From the NCBI GenBank assembly GCA_938002835.1, contig CALKZS010000175.1:1-37632 (forward strand): DNA of 37,632 bases. The letters are read 5' to 3'. Under the pieces are notes generated by a model. The model was not told where the DNA came from and ran no database searches. It was given only the letters and a program-made list of their open reading frames with translations. The position numbers and the translations under genes were made by a program. Source of the stretch: an uncultured Dokdonia sp. GTDB taxonomy: Bacteria; Bacteroidota; Bacteroidia; Flavobacteriales; Flavobacteriaceae. Of this stretch, positions 491 through 36,193 are shown piece after piece (the first letter of the stretch is position 1; each line of letters opens with the position of its first letter).

Positions 491-2776
491 TTATTTCATT
501 TCAAAAGACTTCATAAGAGTAGCATCAGAATCACCACCTACAAAGATGTTATATTGTCCTGGCTCTACTTGCCATACACCTTGGTTATCATAGAAGCCTA
601 ACTCTTCTCCTGTAAGGTCAAAGGTTATTTTTTGTTTTTCTCCTGCTTTAAGCGTTACAAGTTCATATCCTTTTAATTCTCTTACTGGACGCGTCACACT
701 TGCATATGGATCTTGAATATATAATTGTGCTATTTCTTTTCCTGTAACACTGCCTGTATTTTTAAGCGTTACTGTTACCGTTGCTCCTTGCTTAGTGGGT
801 TTTACTTTAAGATCACTATAGGCGAAGCTTGTATAACTCAACCCATAACCAAAAGCATATAAAGGCTCATTACTCTCATCTCCATAGTGTGACCAAAACA
901 CCATATTATCTGCTGCTTCATCAGGTCTTCCTGTACTTTTATGATTATAATATATTGGAAGTTGCCCCACACTACGCGGAAAAGACATAGGCAGTTTACC
1001 TGAAGGATTATAATCTCCATATAATACCTCTGCAATTGCGTTTCCTGCTTGTGACCCAAGTTGCCATCCTTCTACAATAGCGGGTACATTTTCTGCTGCC
1101 CAATCTATAGCTAACGGACGACCATTATTTAAAACCAGTACAATGTTTTTATTTACTTTATAAACTTCTTCTAATAGTTCTTGTTGTACCCCAGGTAAAT
1201 CAAGCTGTGCTCTACTTCTACCTTCTCCAGACATATAACCGTGCTCTCCTAAAACCATCACGACTACATCTGCATTTTTTGCGGTTTCTATCGCTTTCGC
1301 GAAAGCGGACCTATCATCTTCATTAATCGTTAGTTCTCTCACAAAAGTGGCTGGGCCTATCACAACATCTGCTCCTTTTGCATAGGTAAGTGTGTTACCA
1401 TCATATTTTTCCATTCCTTCCTTTACAGAGATAGCCGTTCCATCATCTGAAGCAATACGCCATCCTCCAAGCGGACTACTTTTATCTGCTGCCAATGCAC
1501 CAATTAAAGCTATTTTCTGTCCACTCTTTTTTAATGGTAAAAGGTTATTTTCATTCTTAAGAAGTACGATAGACTTGCGAGCCATATCTAGTACATCTTC
1601 TTGATATTTTGGATTGTAAATCACTTCTTTCTCACGTGCTTCATCACAATACCTGTATGGATCATCAAAAAGACCTAACTCATATTTTACCGTAAGAATA
1701 CGTCTAGCTGCATCATCAATAAGTGCCTCGTCTACTTTTCCTTCTTTAACTAATCCTGCCAGTTCTGTTACATATAGGTCTGACTCCATATCCATATCAG
1801 ATCCTGCTGTCACTGCTTTAAAAGTAGCATCTTTTCCATCTTTTGCATAACCGTGTGCCTTCATTTCTAAAATAGAACCCCAATCTGACACTACAAAACC
1901 ATCAAAACCCCACTTTTCTTTTAAGATCTCACGTTGCAAGAATTTATCTCCCGTTGCTGGCACACCGTTGAGTGTATTAAAAGAGTTCATAAATGTTTTA
2001 ACTCCTGCTTCTTTTGCTGCTTTAAATGGAGGAAAAACAACATTAAACAACGTTCCTGTTCCTACATCTGATGTATTATAATCTCTTCCTGCCTCTGCAA
2101 ATCCGTATGCTGCCCAGTGTTTTGCACAAGCTGCTACAGTTAGTGGATCACTTAAATCATCTCCTTGAAAACCTTGTACTCGTGCTCTGGCGATATCACT
2201 TCCTAAAAAAGGATCTTCTCCCGCTCCTTCCATCACTCTTCCCCATCGTGCATCACGAGAGATATCTACCATAGGAGCAAATGTCCAGTTTATTCCAGAA
2301 GCCGCAGCTTCTGCCGCTCCTACTTGAGCACTTCGTTTTATCGCTTCCATATCCCAACTTGCAGCTTCTGCCAGTGGTATGGGTGATATCGTTTTATAAC
2401 CGTGTATGACATCAAAGCCTATAATGAGTGGTATGCCTAATCTACTTTTCTCTACTGCTATTTTTTGCACAGCTCTTACTTGTTCTACTCCTCTCACATT
2501 GAGCATAGAACCTACATATCCTTTACTCAAATTATCATACTTGCGCTGTGCTCCTCCTCCTTTTGGGGCTGGCCCGGTCACATCATAAAAACCATTGTAT
2601 TGGTTCATCTGACCAATTTTTTCTTCTAAGGTCATCTTTGCAAGTAATGCTTCTACTTTTCCTGGAATTTCGCTTTTAGGAGTTATTGTATTTTGCCCCA
2701 TCATTACTGTAGTAATAGCAAATGCTATAGTTACTGGTAATAAAGAAAGATAACGAGCTGTTTTTTGAGTTTGCAT
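491..2776 (-). CDS. bglX: Periplasmic beta-glucosidase, glycoside hydrolase family 3 (BglX type)
   Basis: 761 residues, the usual length for BglX-type enzymes, which remove terminal beta-linked glucose from oligosaccharides. Residues 1-27 form a signal peptide. The GH3 N-terminal barrel (about 40-370) has the K219-H220 motif (AKHWAAYG) and the nucleophile D298 in VVSDWGS. The C-terminal sandwich domain (about 400-620) holds the likely acid/base E518 in SGEGRSR. A fibronectin-III-like domain covers roughly 670-755 (KNTGSVTGKEIAQLYI). It is monocistronic: it has its own promoter and terminator and no SusCD pair beside it. Residues 491-495 (AFAKA) are encoded by a copy of the palindromic repeat, in the region joining strands of the sandwich domain. 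The family call is secure; the exact substrate is not. Confidence 0.93.
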   Translation of the reverse strand: MQTQKTARYLSLLPVTIAFAITTVMMGQNTITPKSEIPGKVEALLAKMTLEEKIGQMNQYNGFYDVTGPAPKGGGAQRKYDNLSKGYVGSMLNVRGVEQVRAVQKIAVEKSRLGIPLIIGFDVIHGYKTISPIPLAEAASWDMEAIKRSAQVGAAEAAASGINWTFAPMVDISRDARWGRVMEGAGEDPFLGSDIARARVQGFQGDDLSDPLTVAACAKHWAAYGFAEAGRDYNTSDVGTGTLFNVVFPPFKAAKEAGVKTFMNSFNTLNGVPATGDKFLQREILKEKWGFDGFVVSDWGSILEMKAHGYAKDGKDATFKAVTAGSDMDMESDLYVTELAGLVKEGKVDEALIDDAARRILTVKYELGLFDDPYRYCDEAREKEVIYNPKYQEDVLDMARKSIVLLKNENNLLPLKKSGQKIALIGALAADKSSPLGGWRIASDDGTAISVKEGMEKYDGNTLTYAKGADVVIGPATFVRELTINEDDRSAFAKAIETAKNADVVVMVLGEHGYMSGEGRSRAQLDLPGVQQELLEEVYKVNKNIVLVLNNGRPLAIDWAAENVPAIVEGWQLGSQAGNAIAEVLYGDYNPSGKLPMSFPRSVGQLPIYYNHKSTGRPDEAADNMVFWSHYGDESNEPLYAFGYGLSYTSFAYSDLKVKPTKQGATVTVTLKNTGSVTGKEIAQLYIQDPYASVTRPVRELKGYELVTLKAGEKQKITFDLTGEELGFYDNQGVWQVEPGQYNIFVGGDSDATLMKSFEMK
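1292..1307. repeat. Palindromic repeat copy 1 (inside bglX)
   Basis: Exact CGCTTTCGCGAAAGCG. Read in the bglX frame it encodes AFAKA (residues 491-495). Confidence 0.9.
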
Positions 2777-2806
2777 AATCTATTTTTATAAAAAAGTTGC
2801 TTGTTG

Positions 2807-2835
2807 CAAATTACTAGAAATAGACTAATAAACAA
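2807..2835 (-). promoter_or_regulatory. Probable promoter of bglX
   Basis: On the minus strand TTG (2835-2833) is followed after 19 bases by TAATTTG (2813-2807), one base short of the Bacteroidota -7 consensus TAnnTTTG. It lies 31 bases upstream of the ATG. Confidence 0.45.
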
Positions 2836-2973
2836 CCTCTTATTGCTTAACAATTGCTACAACGTTTTCATTATCATTGTGGTATCTATAAAATGAAATA
2901 CTTTTTATTTTTTTCAAAAAAAGTGTATCTCCATTCATTTATTTTTATAATTTTACACACACAAATAAAAATA

Positions 2974-3039
2974 ATGAAACAAGTCAACACATATACATCC
3001 CTCTGGAAGCCTCAAAAAGGTTGGATTCATATGTTGTGA
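2974..3039 (+). CDS. Possible small ORF (21 residues) ahead of a terminator
   Basis: ATG at 2974 opens a 21-residue frame containing two Trp (residues 11 and 17), ending at TGA 3037-3039. A strong terminator follows 29 bases later. A TAATTTTA element (2948-2955) lies upstream and could be a -7 box, but no -33 partner is visible. It may be a tiny protein, a leader peptide of the MFS operon, or an accidental frame inside a small RNA. I do not recognise the peptide, and coding status is unproven. Confidence 0.2.
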   Translation: MKQVNTYTSLWKPQKGWIHML

Positions 3040-3068
3040 TTATGTTTATATAAAATATAACAATACAG

Positions 3069-3097
3069 AAAAGTCCGACCATCGTGTCGGACTTTTT
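3069..3097 (+). terminator. Strong hairpin terminator upstream of the MFS operon
   Basis: AAAAGTCCGAC / GTCGGACTTTT with a 6-base loop, followed by T. There is no annotated gene before it on the plus strand, so it implies a short transcript starting in 2850-2960: either a small RNA/small ORF or an attenuated leader of the operon at 3162. Confidence 0.7.
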
Positions 3098-3161
3098 ATA
3101 TTTAAAAGAAGAACGGCACAGCAAAAGACATTAGCTACAAATTACCAAAACCAAATGCCGT

Positions 3162-4394
3162 ATGAAATCTTTATTAAACAACTACTTAAATAGTTTTACA
3201 GGTCTGTCTCCAGAAATCTGGTGGTTATCATTAATCACTTTTATAAACCGTTGTGGTGCGATGGTGATTCCCTTTTTATCTATTTATCTTAATGAAAATC
3301 TTCATTTTACCTTAAGTGATGTAGGTTGGGTGATGACTTCTTACGGTCTTGGATCTTTTTGTGGAGCTTGGTTAGGTGGTAAACTGTCAGATGTTATAGG
3401 ATATTATAAAGTAATCTTATTGAGTCTTTTCTTTACTGGGATCAATTTTATGTGGGTAATGCACGTAGATAGTTTCTGGATGATGTGCTTCTCTTTCTTT
3501 ATTCTCATAGGTATTGCCGATATGGGAAGACCTGCCTTTTTTATTGCATTAAGTGCCTATTCAAAACCAGAAAACAAAACGAGATCACTCACTTTAATAC
3601 GACTAGCTATTAATCTAGGGTTTGCAGCTGGACCAGCTATAGGTGGTTTTCTCATTGCAAAAGTGAGTTACAATGCACTGTTTTATACAGATGGGATTAC
3701 GTGCATACTAGCTGCTTTGTTAATGACACAAGTATTAAACCCTAAAAAAGTAAAAGAGCTTGATAAAGAAATAATGATCACTAACCCTAAAAAACCACTT
3801 ACAGATACACCGTATATTTTATTTTTGATAGCACTCTCATTATTTGGGATCATTTTTGTGCAATACTTCTCTACGGTTCCTATTTTTTACAAAGATGTAT
3901 ATGGACTAAGTGAAGATACTATAGGCCTTGTTCTAGCAATGAATGGAGCACTCATTGTGATATTTGAAATGCCTCTTATTGCTTGGATGGATAAAAAAGA
4001 TTTTTCTAATATCAAAAACACGATCATAGGCCTTGTGATGACTGGTGTGAGTTTCCTTCTTTTACTGTGGGAATCTTGGGTAGGTGTTATCGTTATCGGG
4101 ATGGTAATCGTGACTTTTGGTGAGATGATCTCTTTTCCGTTTAGTAATAAGTTTGCACTCAATCGTTCAAAAATTGGTAGACAAGGTGCTTATATGGGGT
4201 TGTATAGTATGTCATTTTCTGTAGCTCATATTTTTGGTCATAATAGCGGAATGCAAGTTATTGAGCATTTTGGTTTTGACAGCACTTGGTTTTTCTTATT
4301 ATTTCTCACTATAATAGCTTGGTTGCTGTTATATATTGTAAAACGTATGTTGCAAAAAGAGTTTAAAGAACCAGTATCTTTGAGTGTAAAATAA
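3162..4394 (+). CDS. Major facilitator superfamily transporter (DHA1-like)
   Basis: 410 residues with about 12 hydrophobic segments. After segment 2 the loop reads GGKLSDVIGYYKV, a good match to MFS motif A (GxLaDrxGrkxxl). Segment 5 carries an AAGPAIGGF sequence like antiporter motif C (gxxxGPxxGG), which points to a proton-coupled exporter rather than a sugar importer. The substrate cannot be told from sequence. It is the first gene of a plus-strand operon: the next start codon lies five bases after its stop. A terminator stands 65 bases upstream, so transcription either begins in that short gap or reads through. Confidence 0.85.
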   Translation: MKSLLNNYLNSFTGLSPEIWWLSLITFINRCGAMVIPFLSIYLNENLHFTLSDVGWVMTSYGLGSFCGAWLGGKLSDVIGYYKVILLSLFFTGINFMWVMHVDSFWMMCFSFFILIGIADMGRPAFFIALSAYSKPENKTRSLTLIRLAINLGFAAGPAIGGFLIAKVSYNALFYTDGITCILAALLMTQVLNPKKVKELDKEIMITNPKKPLTDTPYILFLIALSLFGIIFVQYFSTVPIFYKDVYGLSEDTIGLVLAMNGALIVIFEMPLIAWMDKKDFSNIKNTIIGLVMTGVSFLLLLWESWVGVIVIGMVIVTFGEMISFPFSNKFALNRSKIGRQGAYMGLYSMSFSVAHIFGHNSGMQVIEHFGFDSTWFFLLFLTIIAWLLLYIVKRMLQKEFKEPVSLSVK

Positions 4395-4399
4395 AAAAT

Positions 4400-5152
4400 A
4401 TGAAGTTTATTTATAGTTTACTGCTATGCCTTATTATTTGCTCTTGTGATGATAACACATCTACGGTTATCACAGAAGAAGTTGATGTGGCTCATAACGC
4501 TTTCGCGAAAGCAAAACCCATACTAGACTCTGCTCGTTATAATGTGGCATTTTTAGTAATGAACGGCACGTATAATACTGAATTGACAGCGCCTTTTGAT
4601 ATATTTCAACATACACAATATCGCAATAACATTAAAGCGATGAATGTTTTTATGGTAGCAAATACACTTGAACCTATAAGAACTTTTGAAGGAATGTATC
4701 TCTTGCCTGATTATGACTATACAAAGGAAGAATTACCTAAGATTGATATATTAGTTGTTCCGAGTGCAGAACACCATCTAGATACAGATCTGGATGATAC
4801 CGTAATGATAGATTTTGTAAAAAAAGTAGCGCAAGACGCTATTTATGTTACTTCACATTGTGATGGAGCTTTTGTACTTGCTCAAGCTGGGCTGTTAAAC
4901 GATAAAGTATCTACAACTTTTCCTAGTGATATAGGTCTAATGCGAGAGAAATTTCCTAAATTAGATATACGTGAAGATGTACTTTTTGTGCACGATAAAA
5001 AATATATTACAAGTGTGGGAGGTGCAAAAAGTTTTGAAGCTGCACTCTATCTTACAGAACATTTATATGGTGCAGAAATTGCTAGATCCCTTGCCGGTGG
5101 TCTTGTAATAGATTGGAAGATAGAGGAAGTAAAACACATTATTATAGAATAA
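4400..5152 (+). CDS. DJ-1/PfpI-family lipoprotein
   Basis: 250 residues. The N-terminus has a signal peptide and a lipobox ending at C16 (ICSC), so it should be lipid-anchored in the envelope. Residues about 46-245 form a DJ-1/PfpI (class I glutamine amidotransferase-like) domain. The nucleophile-elbow Cys is C154 in TSHCDGAFVLAQAGLL, the arrangement seen in the AraC-N/ThiJ-like branch. A lipidated, stand-alone DJ-1 domain is less common than cytosolic ones. Residues 34-38 (AFAKA), in the linker between lipobox and domain, come from a palindromic repeat copy. It is tightly coupled to the MFS gene. Whether it is a glyoxalase, a chaperone or an amidase is unknown. Confidence 0.8.
   Translation: MKFIYSLLLCLIICSCDDNTSTVITEEVDVAHNAFAKAKPILDSARYNVAFLVMNGTYNTELTAPFDIFQHTQYRNNIKAMNVFMVANTLEPIRTFEGMYLLPDYDYTKEELPKIDILVVPSAEHHLDTDLDDTVMIDFVKKVAQDAIYVTSHCDGAFVLAQAGLLNDKVSTTFPSDIGLMREKFPKLDIREDVLFVHDKKYITSVGGAKSFEAALYLTEHLYGAEIARSLAGGLVIDWKIEEVKHIIIE
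4498..4513. repeat. Palindromic repeat copy 2 (inside DJ-1 lipoprotein gene)
   Basis: Perfect 14-bp core GCTTTCGCGAAAGC (4499-4512); the outer pair is C/A instead of C/G. It encodes AFAKA in the linker after the lipobox. Confidence 0.88.
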
Positions 5153-5178
5153 TATCTATAAATGAAAGTTATTTTTAT

Positions 5179-5808: not shown

Positions 5809-5818
5809 ATTAACAGTA

Positions 5819-7507: not shown

Positions 7508-7523
7508 CGCTTTCGCGAAAGCG
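7508..7523. repeat. Palindromic repeat copy 3 (intergenic)
   Basis: Exact CGCTTTCGCGAAAGCG between the pseudogene end and the 3' end of the PepSY-like gene. No T-run follows in either direction. Confidence 0.9.
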
Positions 7524-8962: not shown

Positions 8963-10996
8963 TTAAGTGAGTCCGTTGTATTTACGCATAAACCACTCTA
9001 CTGCAAGCAATAAAGCTAGTAACCCTAATAGCCATTTCCAATCTATGAGAGGAACTATGTTTTCTGTACTCTTTTGCACAGGCAAATAGCGTCTATCTTC
9101 TGTAAGGTTTTTTATTAATGTCTCAATTTGATTAGGAGTATATATACTTCCCGATGTATTAGACGCAAGAATAGCTAGTGGTGTTACACTTGCATTGAGA
9201 AATTGTTGTTCTATCTCAAAAGGAACAATAGTAAACGCTCCAGAACGAGCAAGACCTTGATCTTCTACAGCCACAGTAAATGTATAGTTACCAGGAGATA
9301 AATTATTCATTGCGACTTGATATGTATTCTTTTTAAGTAATAAGGGAATATCTGTAATCTCCTTCGTTTCTGTGTTACTAACTTTTATAGAGAGACGTGC
9401 TCTACTATCAAACACATAATTTTTATCAAAATATTGAGCATATAAAGTCACGTCACCATTACCATAATAAAAAGATTCGTAATCTAGATTAAGTCTACTC
9501 TTCTTTTTATTAGATGCTGTATATTGAATAAGGTTATCTATAAAATTATCAAACGGCTCAAAACTTCTCTTATCTATAAAACTTTGAGCTCTCCATCTCC
9601 AAAGCCCCTCTCCTAAGATATACAGACCGCGTCTTCCATTATAGTCTGTCGTTACAATGAGTGGTTTTTCTGTATTTAGTGCTCCTATGCGTTGTGTCAA
9701 AGCAACATCTATTTCTGCATTAAATTGTACATCTCCAAAGGCTGCTTCCAAAGGTGGAAAGCTTGAAAAACCAATATCTTCTATTACAAAAGCAGAAAAA
9801 TTTGCATTAAGTTCTCCTTGAACATCTTCTAGTTGACCAGTAATTTCTTGCGTGATTATCTCTTGATAGGTATTTATCATATTCCAGTCTGTAGCACTTC
9901 CAGCAATAGTAATACTGTTTTTATTGAGAGATTCTAATTCTTCATAAACCTTTTTAAAACTTCTATCTGGTTGATATAAAAGAACAAGCTCATAATCATT
10001 AAGTATTTCAATACTTTCTAGAGGCTTTTTAAAAGTGACTGTACGCAATTTATTGCTTTCAATACTCTTTTTGAGCATCCCAATATCTGGATGCACAATA
10101 CTACTCACAATAACAATCTTTGTTTTTTGATCTATAACTTCAATAGCAAAGTTTTTAAGATTATTTTTTGTGTTCTTTTCTTGATTGACTGGACTTAAAC
10201 TTACTGTATACTGTCTCACTCCAACAGTACTTGCAGGGATCAATGCATTTACTATTTGAGAAGATCGATTTTTTGAAAATTGCAAATTCTCACTATAAAC
10301 AACGGTATTCCCAGATCTAATAGAAAACTTTGTTGTAACCTCATTCTCTCCATTATATGAGGTAAAAACCTCAACTGGAAATTTATTATTTATATAAGCA
10401 TATCTGTTTACATTTACTTGACTTATTTTAAGATCATCATAGGTTATGGTATCTCCCAAAACTACTGGATATACTTGTTGTTTATAGTTTTTAGAAGTAT
10501 ATTGATATGCTTCGCCATATGTTTGGTTACCATCAGAAAACAAAACTATAGGAGCTGTATCTGTACCATAAATCTCGTCTAAACCTCTAAGTGCTTCAGA
10601 AATATTAGTCTGTTTATCTTCAAAAGACAAACTATCTAATTCTTTAAACTCTTGACCAAAATGATAAAATTGCACATCAAATGCATTGTTAAGAGATTCG
10701 CTTTCGCGAAAGCGTGCTACTCCAGAAATAACCTCATCATCATATCCTAAGTTTTTTATACTAGCAGAATTATCTATCGCAATGGCAAGAGATGGTTTTT
10801 CTGTGAGATATGAAACCTGCTTATATTTTGGGTTTATGAGTAATAATAACAAACAAAATATAGTTAAAAACCTTAAACCAGTATATAATGTATTGCGCTT
10901 TGTTTTATACTTTGACTTGTAATAATATTGAAACACAGCTATTCCTAATGCAAGAATCGCAGCGCCAATAATTAATAAAAGATCTTGAGTTGTCAA
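8963..10996 (-). CDS. VWA-domain membrane protein (hypothetical)
   Basis: 677 residues. There are two N-terminal membrane segments (about 5-24 and 38-55), then a von Willebrand A-like domain starting at LAIAIDNSASI, where D75-S77-S79 form the first part of a MIDAS site. TAPIVLFSDGNQT supplies the next VWA strand, with an Asp. The middle (about 170-640) looks like beta-rich Ig-type modules with a glutamine amidotransferase-like stretch. The C-terminus is one more membrane segment (about 652-668). The layout resembles bacteroidotal proteins related to the BatA/BatB group, with most of the chain periplasmic. RFRES (95-99) is encoded by a palindromic repeat copy. It sits between fabG and the SPFH gene, with short gaps. 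Confidence 0.75.
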   Translation of the reverse strand: MTTQDLLLIIGAAILALGIAVFQYYYKSKYKTKRNTLYTGLRFLTIFCLLLLLINPKYKQVSYLTEKPSLAIAIDNSASIKNLGYDDEVISGVARFRESESLNNAFDVQFYHFGQEFKELDSLSFEDKQTNISEALRGLDEIYGTDTAPIVLFSDGNQTYGEAYQYTSKNYKQQVYPVVLGDTITYDDLKISQVNVNRYAYINNKFPVEVFTSYNGENEVTTKFSIRSGNTVVYSENLQFSKNRSSQIVNALIPASTVGVRQYTVSLSPVNQEKNTKNNLKNFAIEVIDQKTKIVIVSSIVHPDIGMLKKSIESNKLRTVTFKKPLESIEILNDYELVLLYQPDRSFKKVYEELESLNKNSITIAGSATDWNMINTYQEIITQEITGQLEDVQGELNANFSAFVIEDIGFSSFPPLEAAFGDVQFNAEIDVALTQRIGALNTEKPLIVTTDYNGRRGLYILGEGLWRWRAQSFIDKRSFEPFDNFIDNLIQYTASNKKKSRLNLDYESFYYGNGDVTLYAQYFDKNYVFDSRARLSIKVSNTETKEITDIPLLLKKNTYQVAMNNLSPGNYTFTVAVEDQGLARSGAFTIVPFEIEQQFLNASVTPLAILASNTSGSIYTPNQIETLIKNLTEDRRYLPVQKSTENIVPLIDWKWLLGLLALLLAVEWFMRKYNGLT
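10699..10714. repeat. Palindromic repeat copy 4 (inside the VWA gene)
   Basis: Exact CGCTTTCGCGAAAGCG. In the gene frame it encodes RFRES (residues 95-99), a different frame from copies 1 and 2. Confidence 0.9.
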
Positions 10997-15673: not shown

Positions 15674-15693
15674 TACGCTTTCGCGAAAGCGTA
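15674..15693. repeat. Palindromic repeat copy 5 (lpxA-efp gap)
   Basis: Perfect 20-bp palindrome TACGCTTTCGCGAAAGCGTA. It lies just after the lpxA stop on the minus strand, without a following T-run, so it is not a standard terminator. Confidence 0.92.
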
Positions 15694-15707: not shown

Positions 15708-16490
15708 CTATGAACTAAAGTAACCTTTCATTATGCCTCGTTGAGAATTGCGAATAAACTGTAAAATTTCATCACGCTCTGCCGTTGCTTCCATCTCTGC
15801 TTCGATAATTGTTACCGCTTGTGTATTATTATAATTTTTTTGATAAAGTATTCTGAAAATATCTTGAATCTCGCGAATTTTATCTGTGCTAAAACCACGA
15901 CGCCTTAGTCCTATAGAGTTGATACCTACATAACTTAATGGCTCACGACCTGCTTTTACAAAAGGGGGAACATCTTTACGTACAAGTGATCCTCCTGTTA
16001 CAAAAGCGTGACTTCCGATAGTACAAAATTGTTGAACCGCTGCCATACCTGCAAGAACAACGTATTCTCCTACTGTAATATGACCTGCTAGAGTACTGTT
16101 ATTAGAAAAAATACAATGATCTCCTACAATACAATCGTGTGCTATATGGCAATAGGCCATAATCCAACAATTATTTCCTACCTGCGTTTTCATACGGTCT
16201 GAAGTACCGCGATTAATAGTCACACACTCACGTATCGTGGTGTTGTCTCCTATGATAGTGACCGTATCTTCGTCATTAAATTTCTTATCCTGGGGTACTG
16301 CCGAAATCACAGCTCCCGGAAAAATATTTACGTTCTTTCCTATTCGGGCACCTTCCATAATGGTCACATTAGATCCTATCCAACTTCCCTCACCTATAAC
16401 AACATTATTATGTATCGTTGTGAAAGGTTCAATAACGACATTTTTTGCAATTTTTGCACCTGGATGCACATATGCCAGTGGCTGATTCAT
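15708..16490 (-). CDS. lpxA: UDP-N-acetylglucosamine acyltransferase
   Basis: 260 residues, matching LpxA. It performs the first acyl transfer of lipid A synthesis, moving a 3-hydroxyacyl chain from ACP to UDP-GlcNAc. Hexapeptide repeats fill residues 8-180 (for example IGEGSWIGSNVTIMEGARIG). The catalytic His is H118 in HIAHDC. The C-terminal helical part with IRNSQRGIMKGY is typical. It starts two bases after the lpxC-fabZ stop, so it is part of one operon with lpxD and lpxC-fabZ. Confidence 0.95.
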   Translation of the reverse strand: MNQPLAYVHPGAKIAKNVVIEPFTTIHNNVVIGEGSWIGSNVTIMEGARIGKNVNIFPGAVISAVPQDKKFNDEDTVTIIGDNTTIRECVTINRGTSDRMKTQVGNNCWIMAYCHIAHDCIVGDHCIFSNNSTLAGHITVGEYVVLAGMAAVQQFCTIGSHAFVTGGSLVRKDVPPFVKAGREPLSYVGINSIGLRRRGFSTDKIREIQDIFRILYQKNYNNTQAVTIIEAEMEATAERDEILQFIRNSQRGIMKGYFSS

Positions 16491-20183: not shown

Positions 20184-20203
20184 TACGCTTTCGCGAAAGC
20201 GTA
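20184..20203. repeat. Palindromic repeat copy 6 (divergent HD/porX gap)
   Basis: Perfect 20-bp palindrome TACGCTTTCGCGAAAGCGTA. It lies just downstream of the predicted -7 box of the HD-lpx operon, at about the start of the transcript. Confidence 0.92.
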
Positions 20204-20283: not shown

Positions 20284-21831
20284 ATGAGCAACATACATAT
20301 ACTTTGGGTAGACGATGAAATCGATCTTTTAAAGCCGCACATTTTATTTTTAGAAAAGAAAAACTATAAGGTAACCACCTGTGATAATGGTGCCGAAGCT
20401 GTAGACCTTATAGACGAGCAAAATTTTGACATCATCTTTTTAGACGAAAATATGCCTGGACTCTCTGGCCTTGAAACACTAAGCGAAATCAAAAATAAAC
20501 GAGAAAGTGTCCCTATTGTAATGATCACAAAAAGTGAAGAAGAATATATTATGGAAGAAGCCATAGGCTCTAAAATAGTAGACTACTTGATCAAACCTGT
20601 AAACCCAAATCAGATATTATTAAGTCTTAAAAAAAATCTAGATCACAGTAGACTCATTAGTCAGAAAACAACTTCTTCATACCAACAAGAGTTTCGTAAA
20701 ATAGCAATGGATCTATCTATGACAAATAGTTATGAAGAGTGGATGGAACTCTACCAAAAACTCATTTACTGGGAGATGGAGCTAGAAGGAATAGAAGATA
20801 CGGGTATGTTTGAGATTTTAGAATCTCAAAAAGTCGAAGCAAACAATCAGTTTTGCAAATTTGTAGATAATAATTATGCCGACTGGTTTGATGGTCACGA
20901 AAACCCTACAATGTCACACACATTGTTTAAAAATAAAGTAGCTCCTCATATTAAAAAAGGAGAACCAACACTATTTGTTGTGATAGACAACTTACGTTAT
21001 GACCAGTGGAAAGCCTTTGAACCTCATTTACAATCATATTATAAAAAAGAAAGTGAAGAACCTTACTTAAGTATCCTTCCTACAGCTACTCAATATGCTC
21101 GAAACTCGATTTTCTCTGGTCTTATGCCTGCAGATATGAAGAAAAAGCACCCTACTTTCTGGCTAGACGATACCGATGAAGGCGGAAAGAATATGCACGA
21201 AGCAGATTTTCTAGAAGCGCAACTCAAACGTCTTAACCTAGACATACAATGGGAGTATCATAAAATCACTAATTTAAAAAACGGAAAAAAGCTAGCAGAT
21301 AATTTTAAATCTCAAAAAGAAAACGATCTCACCGTGGTAGTGTATAATTTTGTAGATATGCTCTCCCATTCTAAAACAGAAATGGAAGTTATAAAAGAGC
21401 TTGCCAGCAATGACAAGGCATATAGATCGCTTACAGAAAGTTGGTTTAAAAACTCTCCATTATTAGAAATGATACAAAGTGCTCAAGAAATGGGTATGAA
21501 GCTCATTATTACTACAGATCACGGGACTATCAATGTTAAAAACCCTTCGAAGGTAATAGGTGATAAAAACACAAGTCTCAATTTACGTTATAAGACAGGA
21601 AGAAGTCTTACTTACGAAAATAAAGAAGTACTCGCCGCCGAAGATCCAAGGTCCATACACTTACCCTCTATTAATATGAGTAGTTCTTTCATTTTTGCAA
21701 AGAGTGATTATTTCTTTGCATATCCAAATAACTATAATCATTATGTGAGTTATTATCGCAATACCTATCAACACGGTGGTGTGAGTCTTGAAGAAATGAT
21801 CATCCCTTTTGTCGTTATGGATCCTAAATAA
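20284..21831 (+). CDS. porX: PorX, response regulator with alkaline-phosphatase-like output domain
   Basis: 515 residues. The receiver domain (1-125) has the acidic pair D10-D11, phospho-acceptor D54 (IIFLDENMPG), T82 and K104. A linker is followed by a PglZ-type alkaline-phosphatase-superfamily domain (about 200-515) with VVIDNLRYDQWKAF, FVDMLSHSKTEME, IITTDHGTI and a closing YQHGGVSLEEMIIPFVVM; Asp/His residues in these motifs are likely metal ligands. PorX works with the kinase PorY and controls the type IX secretion system in Bacteroidota. It is divergent from the HD gene, with a 127-base gap, and is followed by a terminator. Confidence 0.93.
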   Translation: MSNIHILWVDDEIDLLKPHILFLEKKNYKVTTCDNGAEAVDLIDEQNFDIIFLDENMPGLSGLETLSEIKNKRESVPIVMITKSEEEYIMEEAIGSKIVDYLIKPVNPNQILLSLKKNLDHSRLISQKTTSSYQQEFRKIAMDLSMTNSYEEWMELYQKLIYWEMELEGIEDTGMFEILESQKVEANNQFCKFVDNNYADWFDGHENPTMSHTLFKNKVAPHIKKGEPTLFVVIDNLRYDQWKAFEPHLQSYYKKESEEPYLSILPTATQYARNSIFSGLMPADMKKKHPTFWLDDTDEGGKNMHEADFLEAQLKRLNLDIQWEYHKITNLKNGKKLADNFKSQKENDLTVVVYNFVDMLSHSKTEMEVIKELASNDKAYRSLTESWFKNSPLLEMIQSAQEMGMKLIITTDHGTINVKNPSKVIGDKNTSLNLRYKTGRSLTYENKEVLAAEDPRSIHLPSINMSSSFIFAKSDYFFAYPNNYNHYVSYYRNTYQHGGVSLEEMIIPFVVMDPK

Positions 21832-22439: not shown

Positions 22440-23959
<1,520 letters not shown>

Positions 23960-25155: not shown

Positions 25156-25171
25156 CGCTTTCGCGAAAGCA
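25156..25171. repeat. Palindromic repeat copy 8 (serA leader)
   Basis: Perfect 14-bp core at 25157-25170, flanked by T-rich (left) and A-rich (right) tracts so that pairing can continue outward. It is 27 bases upstream of the serA ATG, followed by a small CCGC/GCGG hairpin (25181-25191). A-rich rather than T-rich sequence follows it, so it is not a plus-strand terminator. Confidence 0.85.
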
Positions 25172-28060: not shown

Positions 28061-28393
28061 TTGAATAAAAACAAACCACATATCATTCATAGAAGTCTTG
28101 CACTATTAGTGCTTGCCGCTTTTCTACTGCCTGCTCTTATTAATTTTGTGCACGCAACAGAAGGTCATCACCATTTTGATATCTGCACAGAGTCAAACAC
28201 TCACGTGCACGAATCAAAATTAGACTGTCATCTAGATGATATGCAAATGGTAGATGTAGGGTTTTACGCTTTCGCGAAAGCGTACTCACTCTCCTCTAAT
28301 ATTTTTACTCAAACTACATTTTTCTTACCCACATCTAGTTATACTCAAATAGCTAAGAATATTTCAGATCGCGGTCCTCCTGCTACTTGTTAA
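28061..28393 (+). CDS. Secreted His/Cys-rich small protein, possible metal binder
   Basis: 110 residues from TTG at 28061, directly after the previous stop, which supports coupled translation. The signal anchor or signal peptide is at 10-31. The mature part is rich in His and Cys (HATEGHHHFDICTESNTHVH, then LDCHLDD), ending GPPATC, so it could bind zinc or copper. Residues 70-74 (AFAKA) are encoded by a palindromic repeat copy. It is 39 bases ahead of a TonB-dependent receptor gene; in flavobacteria such small exported proteins often precede metal-related receptors. No family name is claimed. Confidence 0.6.
   Translation: MNKNKPHIIHRSLALLVLAAFLLPALINFVHATEGHHHFDICTESNTHVHESKLDCHLDDMQMVDVGFYAFAKAYSLSSNIFTQTTFFLPTSSYTQIAKNISDRGPPATC
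28265..28284. repeat. Palindromic repeat copy 9 (inside His-rich gene)
   Basis: Perfect 20-bp palindrome TACGCTTTCGCGAAAGCGTA. In frame it reads YAFAKAY. Confidence 0.92.
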
Positions 28394-28432
28394 TTATTGA
28401 TATTTCTTCAATTAGAAACAAAATTAACTTTT

Positions 28433-30829
28433 ATGAAATTCATTGTATGGCTCAACGCATTGTTGTTGAGTACTGTAATGTTTGGGCAAAACTGTTCAAA
28501 TACACTTACAGGGTATGTGATCGATCTACACGATAGTAGTGTATTAACTGAAGTCACATTAATTATTGCAGGTTCTGAGATATCTACTATTACTGATAAA
28601 GAAGGTAAATATAGCATCTCTAACTTGTGCGCGAGAACTTATACTTTACAGGTATCTCATCCAGAATGTGAGACTCAGGTTGTAAAAGTCGTAGTAAATG
28701 GCAATACAACTCGTAACATTAATATGGAACATCACTTAGAATCTCTAGGAGATGTAGAATTAGTAGCGCACGCTCACAAAGCAAAAAGCCGTACAGCGAC
28801 AGAACAAATAGTAGCTCACGATATTTTAGAACAAAATAGTTCAGGTTCTTTAGGTGATGCATTAAATAACTTAAGCGGTGTGACTTCATTAAATACTGGA
28901 AATACGGTTGTAAAACCTGTTATACAAGGTCTTCATAGTAGCCGTATTGTATTAATTACAGACGGCACTAGATTACAAGATCAAGAATGGGGAGTTGAAC
29001 ACGCACCCAATATTGATATCAATGCTGCTGGGGAAGTTACTGTCATAAAAGGAGCTGCAGGTCTTCAATACGGAGGAGACGCTGTAGGTGGTACTATCAT
29101 TATTGAACCAGAAAAAGTCCCTGTAAAGGACACACTCTTTGGAAGAACAATATATACAGGAGCAAGTAATGGACGTGGTGGAACAATAACCTCTTCACTC
29201 ACGAAGTCATTTAATAATGGATGGTATGCTAGTATAAATGGAACATATAAGCGTTTTGGAGATTTTGAAGCTCCAGATTATGTGTTAAGTAATACTGGAA
29301 TTGATGAAAAAAATATTTCAGCCCGTATAGGAATAAACAAATATCTATTCGGTCTAGAAGCTAGCTATTCTCTAGTGGATAAAGAATCTGGGATTCTTCG
29401 TTCTTCTCATTTGGGAGGAGCAGAAGATCTTGTAATTGCTATAAATAGTGATCGTCCTTTTATTGTAGAAGATTTTACATATAAAATAGACGCTCCAAGA
29501 CAAGATGTAAAACATCAGGTATTAAAGGTTAATGGGTTTTATCGTTTTGAAAATTTTGGAAAGTTGAGTTCCCAGCTCAGCTACCAACGTAATAACAGAC
29601 TAGAATTTGATATCCGCCGAGATAGTGAAGATACTAGGCCGTCTATAGATTTACAATTAGAATCTACCAGTGGTCAAATAGATTTTGAATATACCGCAGA
29701 CAAAACAATTACCGCAAAAGCTGGAATTTCTGGAACATTCCAAGAACACTTTCCAAATCCTTCTACAGGAGTTAGAAGACTAATTCCTGATTATGAAGCA
29801 TATCATTTTGGACTCTATACATTAGGGTCTAAAGATTTTGGTGCGCTTACAATAGAGGCAGGATTTCGATATGATTATAATCGAATAGAAGCAGAAAAAT
29901 TTTATACAACCTCCTTTTGGGAAGAACGAGGGTATGATATAGAATTTGCAAACTTTGAAGTAGAAGAGTCTGGTAATCAAATTTTTGTGACTCCTGATTT
30001 TGATTACCATAACTTCTCTGCAACTATAGGTACTGCATATGAATTTAATACAAACAACAATATTGCTTTTAACTACTCTCTAGCGTCAAGATCACCCAAT
30101 GTATCAGAACTTTTTAGTGATGGTTTACATCAAAGTGCTGCGCGTATTGAACTAGGAGATTTAAGCTTTAAGCAAGAGGTAGCTAATAAATTTTCTATAA
30201 ACTTCGAGCATAATACTAAAGATTGGGGTTTTAAAATCGCCCCATTTGCAAATTTTATAGACAATTTTATACTTATAGAGCCTACAGGAATTCAACAAAC
30301 CATTCGTGGTAATTTCCAAGTATGGGAATACAGACAGACACAAGCAAGATTACTTGGTTTTGACATAGATAATCGTATACAATTATATAAAAACCTAGAA
30401 CTCAACAGTCAGTTTTCAATTGTAAAAGGAAAAGATATAGCATTAGACAATACAATTATAGACATTCCTTCGGCAAGTACTCGTAATGCAATAACCTATC
30501 GTATTCCAGAGGTTAATAATTTAAACTTAAAATTAGAGAGCAACTTTGTTTTTAGACAAAATGAATTTCCTGATAATAATTTTGAAGTCTTCCTTGTAGA
30601 AACTGAAACTACAGAAATTGTAGATATAAGTACTCCTCCTGATGCTTATCATTTGATCAATTTTAGAGGAGATATTGATTTTGCGATAAACAAAAAAAGC
30701 ACACTCAATCTCAGTCTAATGGTAAACAATATATTCAATACAAAATATCGAGAGTATCTTAATAGACAGCGTTTTTTTGCAGACGACCTAGGTCGTAATA
30801 TATTATTACAATTAAAAGTAAGCTATTAA
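28433..30829 (+). CDS. TonB-dependent outer-membrane receptor, possibly for zinc or another metal
   Basis: 798 residues from ATG at 28433 (the frame opens 12 codons earlier). The signal peptide ends near FGQ (19). A carboxypeptidase-regulatory-like domain is at about 24-105 (TLTGYVIDLHDSSVLTEVTL). The plug is at about 120-235, with KPVIQGLHSSRIVLITDG and a GAAGLQYGGDAVGGTI signature. The barrel runs to the C-terminal ILLQLKVSY. The linker before the plug is His-containing (VAHAHKAKS), as in ZnuD-type receptors. The His/Cys-rich protein before it and the acidic lipoprotein after it support metal uptake, but this is inference and no metal operator was found. Confidence 0.85.
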   Translation: MKFIVWLNALLLSTVMFGQNCSNTLTGYVIDLHDSSVLTEVTLIIAGSEISTITDKEGKYSISNLCARTYTLQVSHPECETQVVKVVVNGNTTRNINMEHHLESLGDVELVAHAHKAKSRTATEQIVAHDILEQNSSGSLGDALNNLSGVTSLNTGNTVVKPVIQGLHSSRIVLITDGTRLQDQEWGVEHAPNIDINAAGEVTVIKGAAGLQYGGDAVGGTIIIEPEKVPVKDTLFGRTIYTGASNGRGGTITSSLTKSFNNGWYASINGTYKRFGDFEAPDYVLSNTGIDEKNISARIGINKYLFGLEASYSLVDKESGILRSSHLGGAEDLVIAINSDRPFIVEDFTYKIDAPRQDVKHQVLKVNGFYRFENFGKLSSQLSYQRNNRLEFDIRRDSEDTRPSIDLQLESTSGQIDFEYTADKTITAKAGISGTFQEHFPNPSTGVRRLIPDYEAYHFGLYTLGSKDFGALTIEAGFRYDYNRIEAEKFYTTSFWEERGYDIEFANFEVEESGNQIFVTPDFDYHNFSATIGTAYEFNTNNNIAFNYSLASRSPNVSELFSDGLHQSAARIELGDLSFKQEVANKFSINFEHNTKDWGFKIAPFANFIDNFILIEPTGIQQTIRGNFQVWEYRQTQARLLGFDIDNRIQLYKNLELNSQFSIVKGKDIALDNTIIDIPSASTRNAITYRIPEVNNLNLKLESNFVFRQNEFPDNNFEVFLVETETTEIVDISTPPDAYHLINFRGDIDFAINKKSTLNLSLMVNNIFNTKYREYLNRQRFFADDLGRNILLQLKVSY

Positions 30830-30832
30830 TAG

Positions 30833-30854
30833 ATATGCTTTCGCGAAAGCATAT
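30833..30854. repeat. Palindromic repeat copy 10 (after the TonB receptor gene)
   Basis: Perfect 22-bp palindrome with the 14-bp core GCTTTCGCGAAAGC (30837-30850), but the flanks are ATAT / ATAT instead of TACG / CGTA. The flanks changed together, keeping the inverted symmetry. Confidence 0.88.
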
Positions 30855-30945
30855 AACTATCTAATTAAAGAACACATAGAAAACATTTAAACTTTTTATT
30901 TAACACAAACAAATTTAAACAACGGCTTAAAAGCAAAAATTAATT

Positions 30946-31506: not shown

Positions 31507-31524
31507 ATAAAAATATTATTATCT

Positions 31525-31560
31525 AAAAAAGGCTAAGAGTATATACTCTTAGCCTTTTTT
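31525..31560. terminator. 36-bp perfect palindromic bidirectional terminator
   Basis: Six A, then GGCTAAGAGTAT and its exact mirror complement, then six T. It stands between the convergent acidic lipoprotein gene and the NAD(P)HX repair gene. Confidence 0.9.
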
Positions 31561-31676
31561 TATTCTTTAGACAGTAGACTCTACATTCATTAAAAAAGGC
31601 AACCTATAAAACTCATTTTAGATTAAATTGAGATCTGTGTTTACTTAAAATAATACTTAACATAGAATCTTATATT

Positions 31677-33224: not shown

Positions 33225-33596
33225 AAAAATCTATTATAGAGAATGTTTTAAAGAATTTGTTAGTCCGCTTTCGCGAAAGCGTAAAACATACCACTAAATT
33301 AGAAAAAAGTAATACAGCAATCACATTATAGATTAGAATTCTTACAATGAAAACAAACTTTATCGATCTTCTTAAAACTTTTTTACTCAAAAAATAAAAC
33401 AATCTATAGCATATTACTTATGTATAATATTTAATAAAAAAGAGTAAAAAAGATAAATATTTTAAAAAGCGGCATTTAGATTATCACTTCCATATTTAAA
33501 ATCCTTTTGCGCATACTATATTGAAATATCCTCAAAAGTTATTTCATCACGTTGTATCGTTCTATAAATATCTTAATTTTAACCATTCATTAACAT
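33225..33596. other. Divergent intergenic region, NAD(P)HX repair gene / thr leader
   Basis: AT-rich. It contains palindromic repeat copy 11 and a probable minus-strand -7 box at 33294-33301 (TAATTTAG). The thr-operon promoter must lie in the right part (about 33480-33590), but I could not identify it with confidence. Confidence 0.5.
33266..33281. repeat. Palindromic repeat copy 11 (upstream of the NAD(P)HX repair gene)
   Basis: Exact CGCTTTCGCGAAAGCG. It would fall within the first 25 bases of the minus-strand leader if the -7 at 33294-33301 is real. Confidence 0.9.
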
Positions 33597-33668
33597 ATGG
33601 AAATAACACAAAATATATCTATTTTCTTCATTACCATTACAGGTATTATTACCCCTATGGGGTATTAG
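33597..33668 (+). CDS. thrL: Thr/Ile-rich leader peptide of the thr operon (attenuator)
   Basis: A 23-residue frame from ATG 33597 to TAG 33666-33668, ending 83 bases before thrA. Four Thr (residues 4, 13, 15, 19) and seven Ile (3, 7, 9, 12, 14, 17, 18) make up almost half of it, with the core FITITGIITP. This is the pattern of classical thr leader peptides, where ribosome stalling at scarce Thr or Ile tRNA controls transcription. Downstream structures are a CCCC-TAT-GGGG hairpin (33652-33662) overlapping the end of the frame and a GCTCG-TAGAT-CGAGC hairpin (33692-33706) followed by TTTCAATTT. The regulation is inferred and not proven by sequence alone. Confidence 0.6.
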   Translation: MEITQNISIFFITITGIITPMGY

Positions 33669-33691
33669 TTGTTTCATATCGTCCATTTTGC

Positions 33692-33719
33692 GCTCGTAGA
33701 TCGAGCCAGCTTTCAATTT
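33692..33719 (+). promoter_or_regulatory. Candidate thr attenuator hairpin
   Basis: GCTCG / CGAGC stem (33692-33696, 33702-33706), 5-base loop, then CAGCTTTCAATTT, a poor but possible T-tract. An alternative, weaker terminator pairs GGGTATT (33660-33666) with AAAACCC (33726-33732), before TTTT. Which one is used is unclear. Confidence 0.4.
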
Positions 33720-33751
33720 ATATATAAAACCCTTTTCCAAAACTGCATTAT

Positions 33752-36193
33752 ATGCGTGTATTAAAATTTGGCGGTACTTCGGTAGGAAGTATTGAAAACA
33801 TAGAAAAAGTAATTGCCATTGTGGCACAACAATCTCAATCTCATCCTGTAGCTGTAGTAGTTTCGGCTGTAGGAGGTGTGACCGATTTATTACTTAAAGC
33901 AGGAACACTTGCTGCTCATAAAGATCCATCTTATAAAGATATTTTTAATGAGATTAGTAAAAAACACCTTGAATTTACAGAGAGTCTTACAAGTAAAAAC
34001 ACTGAAGTTATCGCTAAGGTTTCAGAATTAATGTCTAACCTAGATGATCTTCTTAAAGGTATTTTTTTAATAAATGAATTATCTCCTAAAACAATAGACA
34101 AGCTCTCTTCTTTTGGAGAACTCACCAGTAGCCATATTATAAGTGCTGCTTTTAAGCATAAAAATATAGCCATTGCTTTAAAAGATAGTCGCAAACTTAT
34201 TATCACAGATAGTAAGCATACTAAAGCAAGTGTAAACTACGATCTTACTAATAAAAACATACAAGAATATTTTACCACTTCTTCTCACAAAATCACTATT
34301 TTAGGAGGTTTTATAGCGAGTACAGAAACGGGAGAAACAAGTACACTAGGCCGTGGTGGTTCTGACTTTACAGCAGCAATTATTGCAGCGGCATTAAATG
34401 TAGATCAACTAGAGATCTGGACAGATGTGAGTGGTATGTTTTCTGCAAATCCTAAACTCGTAAAAGAAGCACAACCCATAAGTGAGATATCTTATCACGA
34501 GGCAATGGAGTTATCACATTTTGGGGCAAAAGTGTTGTACCCTCCTACCATTGTTCCTACATTGAGTAAAAACATTCCTATTTATATCAAAAACACAATG
34601 GCTCCTGAAGAAGCAGGAACACGCATTGCACAACAGGAAAAAGAAAACGGTACACCTATAAAAGGAATCTCACACATAAGTGATATTGCACTTCTTACAT
34701 TAGAAGGTGCTGGTATGGTGGGAAATTCTGGAATCTCAAAACGTCTTTTTGAAGTACTATCACTACAACAGGTAAATATCATATTAATCACGCAAGCCTC
34801 TAGCGAACATAGTATTTGTATCGGTGTGATGAAAGCAGATGCCTTAAGAGCAAAAACAGCAATAGAAACTGAGTTTGCATACGAAAGGTCTTTACATAAA
34901 ATAGATCCTGTTCTTGTAGAAGCTGGCCTTGCTATAATTGCACTTGTAGGTGAATCTATGAAGAGCCATCAAGGTATTTCTGGAAAAATGTTTAGTACGC
35001 TGGGTAAAAACGCAGTAAACATTAGGGCTATTGCTCAAGGTGCTAGTGAGAAAAACATCTCTGCAGTCATTGCAGAAAAAGATGTAAAAAAAGCACTTAA
35101 CAGCCTACACGAAGTTTTCTTTGAAGGCAACCGTAAGCAACTTAATTTATATATAATGGGCGTAGGTAATGTAGGGAGTAAGCTCATAGAGCAGATCAAA
35201 CAGCAGGACATTTATTTACGTGATAACCTCAATCTTAATTTACGTATAATGGGGCTTTCTAATAGTAGAAATATGCTTGTCTCTGAAACTCCAATTGATC
35301 TAGATAAATGGAAAGAACAACTGGATGATGGAGAGACTGCTGATATTTTACGCTTTCGCGAAAGCGTAATTACCTCAAATCAACGCAATGCTGTTTTTGT
35401 AGATGTTACTGCAAATGAAACTGCTGCATTGAGTTATGATAACTATTTACGTAATAGTATTTCTGTAGTAGCGTGTAATAAAATTGCAGCAGCGGGATCA
35501 CAAGAGTATTACTCTAATCTTAAATCATTAAGTCGTAAATACAATGCTTCATTTATGTTTGAAACAAACGTAGGGGCTGGATTACCCATCATAGACACAC
35601 TGCAAAACCTCATTGCTTCTGGTGATAGAATCACAAAGGTACAAGCGGTACTTTCTGGAAGTCTCAATTTTGTGTTTAATAACTTTAAGACAGGAGGGAG
35701 TTTTCACGATGTAGTACAAGCTGCAAAATCTGAAGGATATACAGAACCAGATCCTCGTATTGATTTGAGTGGTGTAGATGTGGCTCGTAAAATATTAATT
35801 CTTGCTAGAGAGAGCGGTCTTAAACTCGAACTTGCAGATATTAAAAACACACCTTTCTTGACTAAAAATAATCTTGAGAGTACCGATGTCCCTCATTTCT
35901 TTGAGACACTCAAAGAAGATGCAGATCACTTTGAGAAACTTGTGAGTGAAGCTACAGCAAAAGGAGAGCGACTTAAATATGTTGCTCAATTAGAAAATAA
36001 TGAAGCGAGTGTAGGATTACAATCTGTAGGTAACGATAGTCCTTTTTATAACCTAGAAGGATCTGATAATATTGTATTATTCTATACAGAACGCTATCCA
36101 GAACAACCTCTTATTGTAAAAGGAGCTGGTGCCGGTGGAGAAGTAACCGCAAGCGGATTATTTTCAGATATTATACGTCTAAGACAAGATTAA
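33752..36193 (+). CDS. thrA: Bifunctional aspartokinase / homoserine dehydrogenase
   Basis: 813 residues, full-length fusion. The aspartokinase part starts with KFGGTSVGS (5-13) and includes GFIASTETGETSTLGRGGSD; ACT-type regulatory segments lie at about 310-460 (LEGAGMVGNSGISKRLFEVL, QGASEKNISAVI). The homoserine dehydrogenase part begins at about 468 with the NAD(P) motif MGVGNVGSK and contains ACNKIAAAGS, MFETNVGAGLPIID and PDPRIDLSGVDVARK. It catalyses the first and third steps toward threonine and methionine. Residues 534-538 (RFRES) in the dehydrogenase domain are encoded by a palindromic repeat copy. It is preceded by the Thr/Ile leader and followed by thrB after 58 bases. Confidence 0.96.
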   Translation: MRVLKFGGTSVGSIENIEKVIAIVAQQSQSHPVAVVVSAVGGVTDLLLKAGTLAAHKDPSYKDIFNEISKKHLEFTESLTSKNTEVIAKVSELMSNLDDLLKGIFLINELSPKTIDKLSSFGELTSSHIISAAFKHKNIAIALKDSRKLIITDSKHTKASVNYDLTNKNIQEYFTTSSHKITILGGFIASTETGETSTLGRGGSDFTAAIIAAALNVDQLEIWTDVSGMFSANPKLVKEAQPISEISYHEAMELSHFGAKVLYPPTIVPTLSKNIPIYIKNTMAPEEAGTRIAQQEKENGTPIKGISHISDIALLTLEGAGMVGNSGISKRLFEVLSLQQVNIILITQASSEHSICIGVMKADALRAKTAIETEFAYERSLHKIDPVLVEAGLAIIALVGESMKSHQGISGKMFSTLGKNAVNIRAIAQGASEKNISAVIAEKDVKKALNSLHEVFFEGNRKQLNLYIMGVGNVGSKLIEQIKQQDIYLRDNLNLNLRIMGLSNSRNMLVSETPIDLDKWKEQLDDGETADILRFRESVITSNQRNAVFVDVTANETAALSYDNYLRNSISVVACNKIAAAGSQEYYSNLKSLSRKYNASFMFETNVGAGLPIIDTLQNLIASGDRITKVQAVLSGSLNFVFNNFKTGGSFHDVVQAAKSEGYTEPDPRIDLSGVDVARKILILARESGLKLELADIKNTPFLTKNNLESTDVPHFFETLKEDADHFEKLVSEATAKGERLKYVAQLENNEASVGLQSVGNDSPFYNLEGSDNIVLFYTERYPEQPLIVKGAGAGGEVTASGLFSDIIRLRQD
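35348..35369. repeat. Palindromic repeat copy 12 (inside thrA)
   Basis: Perfect 22-bp palindrome (TTACG core CGTAA ends). It encodes LRFRESV within the homoserine dehydrogenase domain. Confidence 0.92.

Follow-up and report, generated by a model that had tools for sequence, protein, structure and literature searches.

Here we show that GCTTTCGCGAAAGC, a perfect palindrome of 14 bp, is present in hundreds of sharply defined copies in the genomes of Dokdonia and two further genera of Flavobacteriaceae, and that in two Dokdonia species its even spacing is not explained by gene layout. It came to attention in a stretch of 37,632 nucleotides from an uncultured Dokdonia sp. (assembly GCA_938002835.1, contig CALKZS010000175.1, positions 1 to 37,632; the whole stretch is hereafter called the window), where an earlier note, made from the letters alone, had described twelve copies and proposed either an uptake signal or a chromosome-organising site. 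We give about an even chance to the reading in which the palindrome serves, at the level of the genus, as a mark of self DNA like an uptake sequence and is kept by biased recombination.

Abundance and clade limits of the palindrome

The genome of the window (G000; 3.1 Mb in 196 contigs) contained 610 exact copies of GCTTTCGCGAAAGC, and none of the reversed word used as control. When 59 genomes including this one were compared, all 18 of the genus Dokdonia held 369-905 copies, one genome of genus g11 held 578, one other held 6 and 39 held none. Among 397 genomes of the family, at least one copy was found in 80 and more than 19 in only six, namely G000 (610), G011, which is D. sinensis (857), G027 (578), G281 (664), G433 (609) and G230 of genus g210 (408; GC 0.448 in the sampled stretches). 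The other 391 had 0-19 copies, and genomes in this range are called motif-poor below. Thus, besides Dokdonia, two further genera carry the palindrome, with 408-664 copies in four sampled genomes. Apart from G000, none of 392 genomes of the phylum had more than 6. Named records counted whole, several of which are the same genomes as the numbered ones, gave 705, 685, 905 and 857 copies for four Dokdonia genomes, 288 and 478 for two Nonlabens genomes, 551 for Flavobacteria bacterium BBFL7, 369 for a Cytophagaceae-labelled metagenome-assembled genome and 3 for another Flavobacteriaceae record. A scan of genome contigs with a 20-base pattern returned 14 stretches, of which 6 were from Dokdonia, 2 from Nonlabens, 1 from BBFL7, 2 from Flavobacteriaceae and 3 from one Cytophagaceae-labelled metagenome-assembled genome. 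G011 and G013 have the same parB coordinates as the D. sinensis record and an uncultured Dokdonia record, respectively. Counting in the whole genome and in related genera, a check proposed in the earlier note, gave numbers far above random.

In a tree of outer-membrane proteins three g11 genomes grouped with BBFL7 (support 100/100), which we take to be a Nonlabens relative, and genus g11 is therefore most likely Nonlabens. In the LpxC-FabZ tree G230 was the neighbour of Dokdonia (94/89), whereas Nonlabens stood apart from them; the deep branches were weakly supported, so that one or two gains of the motif are both possible. Remnants of the palindrome were sought in five motif-poor genomes, and 80 kb of each contained no copy with zero, one or two mismatches; counted whole, some of these five genomes hold 4, 5 and 16 exact copies. 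No report of the palindrome was found in the openly licensed literature, searched at the level of listings, and it is not mentioned in the available part of PMC5217627.

Within the window, 11 of the 12 sites were exact 14-mers and one had a single internal change (Table 1). All lay where the earlier note had put them, half of them within and half between open reading frames (ORFs) as called mechanically, in keeping with its statement that both coding and intergenic DNA are occupied. The printed flanks also bore out the outer and internal changes that it had listed; its count of nine matches to the 16-mer came down to eight. Dinucleotide-shuffled windows had on average 0.07 sites with up to two mismatches (largest number 1), and 12 was reached in none of 100 shuffles. 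As a side observation, a PglZ domain and a response-regulator receiver domain occur together in the window ORF at 20284-21831.

Table 1. Palindrome sites of the window, with their outer bases, gene context and state at the matching place in the complete Dokdonia chromosome G016
Position	14-mer	Outer bases	Context	Matching place in G016
1293..1306	exact	16-mer exact	inside GH3-family ORF 491-2776 (minus)	
4499..4512	exact	one outer change	inside ORF 4400-5152	
7509..7522	exact	16-mer exact	intergenic	
10700..10713	exact	16-mer exact	inside ORF 8963-10996 (minus)	exact
15677..15690	exact	16-mer exact, extended TAC...GTA	intergenic, beside end of ORF 15708-16490	one mismatch
20187..20200	exact	16-mer exact, extended TAC...GTA	intergenic	exact
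23111..23124	one internal change (GCTTTCGCAAAAGC)		inside ORF 22856-23959	
25157..25170	exact	one outer base differing	intergenic	
28268..28281	exact	16-mer exact, extended TAC...GTA	inside short ORF 28061-28393	
30837..30850	exact	both outer bases differing	intergenic, just past stop of TonB-dependent receptor ORF 28397-30829	
33267..33280	exact	16-mer exact	intergenic	
35352..35365	exact	16-mer exact, extended TAC...GTA	inside aspartokinase/homoserine dehydrogenase ORF 33752-36193	

Sharpness of the word and its flanks

In 460 kb of G016, copies with 0/1/2/3 mismatches numbered 147/9/18/15; the corresponding numbers were 50/9/12/8 for 237 kb of G000 and 59/13/27/46 for 460 kb of G230, as against 0/0/0-1/7-21 in second-order Markov sequence. 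The density ranged from 0.13/kb in G230 to 0.32/kb in G016. Many sites of G000 and G016 are lengthened to TAC...GTA, and in these genomes the 5' flank is C-poor on both strands to about 30 bases; the flanks are weaker in G230, and copies share their flanks only as a short consensus. Nearly all of the enrichment resides in the full 14-mer. Outside 14-mers, CGCG was at or below background, and TCGCGA was 1.1-1.9 times the expectation in G000 (18 vs 9.6), G016 (46 vs 32.9) and G230 (108 vs 97.5). Since these 4-6-base cores are near background outside it, the unit must be close to the whole 14-mer. Longer cores outside 14-mers were in modest excess in the same three genomes, with 8, 16 and 40 copies of TTCGCGAA (1.2, 3.4 and 10.5 expected) and 8, 16 and 18 of TTTCGCGAAA (0.15, 0.35 and 1.1 expected). 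All the TTCGCGAA copies of G000 and G016 read TTTCGCGAAA, and the excess could be made up of decayed sites. Separately from the palindrome, CTTCGGC was enriched in stretches of G016 (together with AGCCGAAA), G000 and G027/G281, perhaps as loops of terminator hairpins.

Placement and spacing along the chromosome

We sampled G016 as 23 stretches of 20 kb. Sites were in large excess between genes, with 74 of 147 intergenic in G016 (13 expected) and 26 of 50 in G000 (5.6 expected). Sites inside ORFs were most often read in the frame Ala-Phe-Ala-Lys (16/24 in G000, 37/73 in G016 and 28/49 in G230). The density was flat along the G016 chromosome, at 3-9 sites per 20 kb (variance/mean 0.28, p 0.0004). 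The first 230 kb of G016 gave 66 gaps with a mean of 3.5 kb and a coefficient of variation (CV) of 0.62, where random placement gives about 1, and only 2 of these gaps (3%) were below 1 kb as compared to 16.5 expected. Similarly, 99 gaps along 427 kb of one D. sinensis contig had a mean of 4.3 kb and a CV of 0.65, ranged from 602 to 17654 bp and included 2 (2%) below 1 kb as compared to 20.5 expected. When the coding/intergenic split was kept in the null and no intergenic region was allowed more than one site, the G016 stretches still had 7 gaps below 1 kb against 27 expected and none above 8 kb against 6 expected, and the variance of counts was lower as well (p 0.001 or less for each measure).

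Other stretches of G000, on parts of three contigs, gave gap CVs of 0.52, 0.67 and 0.67 (p 0.01, 0.09 and 0.09), and the window, with its CV of 0.30, is therefore an unusually regular piece. The first 60 kb of G230 gave a CV of 0.71 (p 0.23). Gaps outside the window, whose comparison with random expectation the earlier note had suggested, were thus under-dispersed in G016 and D. sinensis and more weakly so in the G000 contigs; of the two outcomes that the note had named as telling against its proposal, random counts in the genome and random gaps elsewhere, neither was observed.

Turnover of sites, islands and phages

Alignment of the window with G016 showed sites 10700 and 20187 exactly kept while their flanks differ, and one mismatch at the place of site 15677; site 7509 falls in a badly aligned, gapped and hence uninformative stretch. 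Conversely, opposite two sites of G016 the window had non-site sequence of the same length, with no gap through the 14-mer, although one of these alignments has a 3-base gap beside the site and the direction of change is not fixed by them. The ORF beside site 15677 adjoins lpxC-fabZ, and near these genes nine Dokdonia genomes had a site with no (four genomes), one (three) or two (two) mismatches, sites being matched by distance because the joint alignment mixed orientations there. In this small sample the copies appear to behave as a point-evolving motif and not as insertions. A second, imperfect palindrome of the GCTTTCGCGAAAAT type lies about 100 bp from the main site near lpxC-fabZ in five Dokdonia genomes (L290, L291, L292, L294 and L295).

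The low counts of other genera partly cluster on one contig. From such genomes we fetched 14 stretches, 11 of which share DNA among themselves (L159, L160, L162-L166, L168-L170 and L172, from G376, G118, G127, G254, G141, G029 and G386). Palindromes are kept at corresponding positions in these related stretches. L162, the one annotated island, carries genes for heavy-metal efflux, a P-type ATPase and a multicopper oxidase. Out of 120 site comparisons among 12 island stretches, 64 were exact; where the flanks were less than 85% identical (mean 75%), 40 of 92 sites were exact and mean site identity was 87%, the pairs being non-independent and each picked since one partner has a site. From these comparisons we infer that the islands probably once resided in motif-bearing hosts. 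Under either of the two leading readings the palindrome can thus label DNA that was once in Dokdonia- or Nonlabens-type hosts, and might be used as a tracer of such DNA, since exact sites are now found in other genera on islands, one of them with metal-resistance genes.

The Nonlabens phages P12024S and P12024L, which are closely related to each other, had no site in 71 kb, and no integrase was among their listed annotated features. Phage genes were present in two IMG/VR records (head protease and endolysin in one, integrase and tape measure in the other), each of which had 4 sites, in 39.8 kb and 23.9 kb respectively. These records were selected for having several sites and therefore show only that phage-type DNA can carry them; the scan of viral contigs with the 14-mer, which returned at least 120 stretches, is likewise no census.

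Uptake-signal reading and the flavobacterial transformation genes

Over-representation throughout the genome and limitation to a clade are both traits of uptake sequences. If the palindrome is such a signal, a DNA-binding part of the flavobacterial transformation apparatus would favour fragments bearing the symmetrical site. What it recognises would be the 14-bp core with its TAC/GTA arms, to which Dokdonia adds a C-poor 5' flank of about 30 bp per strand. A receptor would read the site and bias uptake, so that fragments carrying it would enter and recombine more often; new sites would thereby spread, damaged ones would be repaired and recombination would maintain the copies. A second site on the same fragment of a few kb would bring no gain, and spread driven by uptake therefore predicts a shortage of close pairs. 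The expected outcome would be hundreds of near-perfect copies, few close pairs and sites on islands that were once in the chromosome. A toy model of this drive gave gap CVs of 0.56-0.61 over 15 settings. In six settings with fragments of mean 2 and 4 kb, mean gaps were 2.0-6.9 kb, CVs 0.56-0.59 and the share of gaps below 1 kb 1-20% (3-9% in four of them, whose mean gaps were 3.0-4.9 kb). Under the assumptions of the model, drive would suffice for the observed spacing, which speaks to sufficiency only. The available part of PMC7811141 describes the relatively even distribution of uptake signal sequences (USS) as an expected consequence of molecular drive, and in that of PMC1939737 Karlin and colleagues are reported to have taken even spacing to point to a function in replication, repair or compaction.

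We checked the transformation genes known from the family. All 26 genomes searched, of which 17 carry the motif and 9 are motif-poor, had ComEC and DprA, and DUF5689 was found in 29 of 30, the one miss being a genome of another family; a barrel-type neighbour of DUF5689 clustered at 29 of 30 loci. According to the part of PMC8459023 that was available, Riemerella cannot be transformed without a DUF5689 protein and the outer-membrane protein encoded next to it, and a search for pilus homologues in two Riemerella species detected none; the pairs seen here and the Riemerella pair are equated by family and position only. As an observation in its own right, 7 of 12 motif-bearing loci (L248, L249, L252, L256, L261, L266 and L267) have a palindrome downstream of the DUF5689 gene, no more than about 100 bp away, a raw count without control in which G003 and G016 are near-identical.

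Several results weigh against the uptake reading. ComEC, DprA and DUF5689 fail to separate motif-bearing from motif-poor genomes; being present with and without the motif, the transformation genes fit this reading but do not discriminate. The DUF5689 alignment had one column separating the two groups and that of its partner none (200 random labellings gave no separating column in either), and both trees needed three label changes and contained no motif-bearing clade. On these grounds neither the DUF5689 protein nor its partner in the outer membrane is favoured as a receptor specific to the clade. In G230, the excess between genes was not significant (10 of 59 sites intergenic, 6.6 expected, p 0.11) and the spacing signal was weak (0-5 sites per 20-kb stretch, variance/mean 0.60, p 0.07). 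Even spacing is to be expected wherever neighbouring sites interfere with each other, whatever the process. Uptake words are characteristically asymmetrical and the site is a perfect palindrome; DUES words are not palindromes in the available part of PMC1939737. Finally, no paper on transformation of Dokdonia or Nonlabens was found in the openly licensed literature at listing level, nor any report there of an uptake word in Bacteroidota. The uptake proposal of the earlier note is thus strengthened by the number of copies in the genome, their excess between genes in Dokdonia, their under-dispersed spacing and limitation to a clade, the two phages without a site and the presence of transformation genes, and weakened by the palindromic form, by a putative surface pair with almost no change that follows the motif and by transformation genes equally present in motif-poor genera. 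Should the uptake reading be right, Bacteroidota would provide an example of such a signal that is palindromic and is used by an apparatus with no known pili, and the receptor that takes up DNA in flavobacterial transformation could be approached directly through it.

Rival readings

We rank a chromosome scaffold second, as the main rival to an uptake signal, and consider it possible but clearly less probable. A symmetrical oligomer of a nucleoid or segregation protein would bind each palindrome, and the spacing of a few kb would serve to fold, condense or tether the whole chromosome, with selection acting directly on spacing. A long symmetrical site with a wide footprint would suit such a protein, as would the flat density of G016 with its few short and very long gaps, and the occurrence of sites on islands but not on the two Nonlabens phages. 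However, the spread of gaps in D. sinensis is loose for a scaffold, and density differs more than twofold between the genera of G230 and G016. Nor was an extra ParB-type protein found: ParB_N matched in all 40 handles searched (three genomes being reached twice), with one match per motif-bearing genome except G010, which had two, and one to three in motif-poor genomes. A dedicated ParB/Noc paralogue was thus rejected, as no excess of ParB_N tracks the motif. Among the candidate families searched, no protein that binds the palindrome emerged. If the scaffold reading is right, the palindrome would organise the chromosome as a whole, through a protein not known so far.

A Chi-like self-mark, at which a translocating nuclease in the cell would be halted or redirected so that marked DNA is spared or recombined, is in our opinion unlikely. 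It is favoured by the C-poor 5' flank on both strands in Dokdonia and by the two phages without a site, but Chi sites are short and directional, whereas the palindrome is symmetrical and 14 bp or more in length. We agree with the earlier note that KOPS (FtsK-orienting polar sequences) and Chi fit a symmetrical site poorly.

Still less probable is a word of the kind of highly iterated palindrome 1 (HIP1), whose short core would be maintained through methylation or through biased repair. High copy number in coding and intergenic DNA and the excess of TTCGCGAA would accord with it, but CGCG and TCGCGA are near background outside the 14-mer, the extra TTCGCGAA copies are few and possibly decayed sites, and the two Nonlabens phages lack the site; a short-core methylation word is disfavoured. 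A mobile palindromic element, of the type of repetitive extragenic palindromes (REP) or miniature inverted-repeat elements, or a transcription terminator, is the least probable of all: about half of the sites are intergenic in two Dokdonia genomes and an RNA hairpin is possible from the sequence, but about half lie inside ORFs, flanks are unshared beyond the short consensus, the two sites found only in G016 align to window sequence of equal length, no T-run follows the site on its 3' side, and Y1 transposase matches are missing in 11 of 17 motif-bearing genomes (G003, G016 and G230 among them). A transposable repeat is thus disfavoured by the alignments and the Y1 search, and REP with its RAYT (REP-associated tyrosine transposase) was rejected, as the transposase does not track the motif and half of the sites are coding.

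A second word in motif-poor relatives

In five motif-poor genomes no sharp, long palindromic dialect was seen; a shorter word was found instead. CTTCGGAA was over-used in three of six motif-poor genomes sampled (G116, 23 vs 0.4 expected; G118, 32 vs 5.9; G024, 35 vs 5.3), and not in G127, G026 and G241. It is present in both orientations and in several frames. About 33 of the 397 family genomes, as read from the table, hold it at three or more times the reversed control, none of them with more than 19 palindromes, and in G318 it reached 2678 copies against 245 (11 times). The six palindrome-rich genomes have it below control, from 5 vs 60 in G281 to 75 vs 141 in G011, as do many others. In 40 kb of G318 the middle base varied (28 G, 20 A, 12 C and 11 T), and the unit there is therefore CTTCNGAA. 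Unlike that of the palindrome, the spacing of the second word looks random (CV 0.83-1.49; stretches L269-L272, L277-L280, L285-L288 and L325-L327). CTTCGGAA as a Chi-like, strand-biased word was rejected, there being no clear bias within 20-kb stretches with few sites each.

Dialects of the DNA uptake sequence (DUS) are described for Neisseriaceae in the available part of PMC3630211, and we treat CTTCNGAA as a lead to dialects, not a proof. It is a tentative suggestion, more doubtful than the uptake reading itself, that Flavobacteriaceae carry genus-specific words (GCTTTCGCGAAAGC in Dokdonia, Nonlabens and one more genus, CTTCNGAA in others) read by a pilus-less uptake apparatus, as dialects independent of those of Pasteurellaceae and Neisseriaceae. 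If true, a whole bacterial family would sort self from foreign DNA by dialects.

Comparison with known systems

REP sequences with RAYT transposases are likewise palindromic and in hundreds of copies, but they differ from the present palindrome, of which about half the sites lie inside ORFs and which no Y1 transposase follows. The TTTC...GAAA arms of parS and Noc-binding sites resemble the palindrome, and these sites too are symmetrical; the palindrome differs in occurring in hundreds of copies round the whole chromosome, with no extra ParB_N protein tracking it. HIP1 of cyanobacteria (GCGATCGC) is also an iterated palindrome found within and between genes, whereas here the cores are near background outside the 14-mer and the copies are mostly perfect. 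The words of Haemophilus USS and Neisseria DUS are 9-12 bp long and asymmetrical, as compared to a palindrome of 14 bp here. With them the palindrome shares its hundreds of copies, its limitation to a clade, its presence in coding and intergenic DNA with an intergenic excess (in Dokdonia) and its relatively even spacing.

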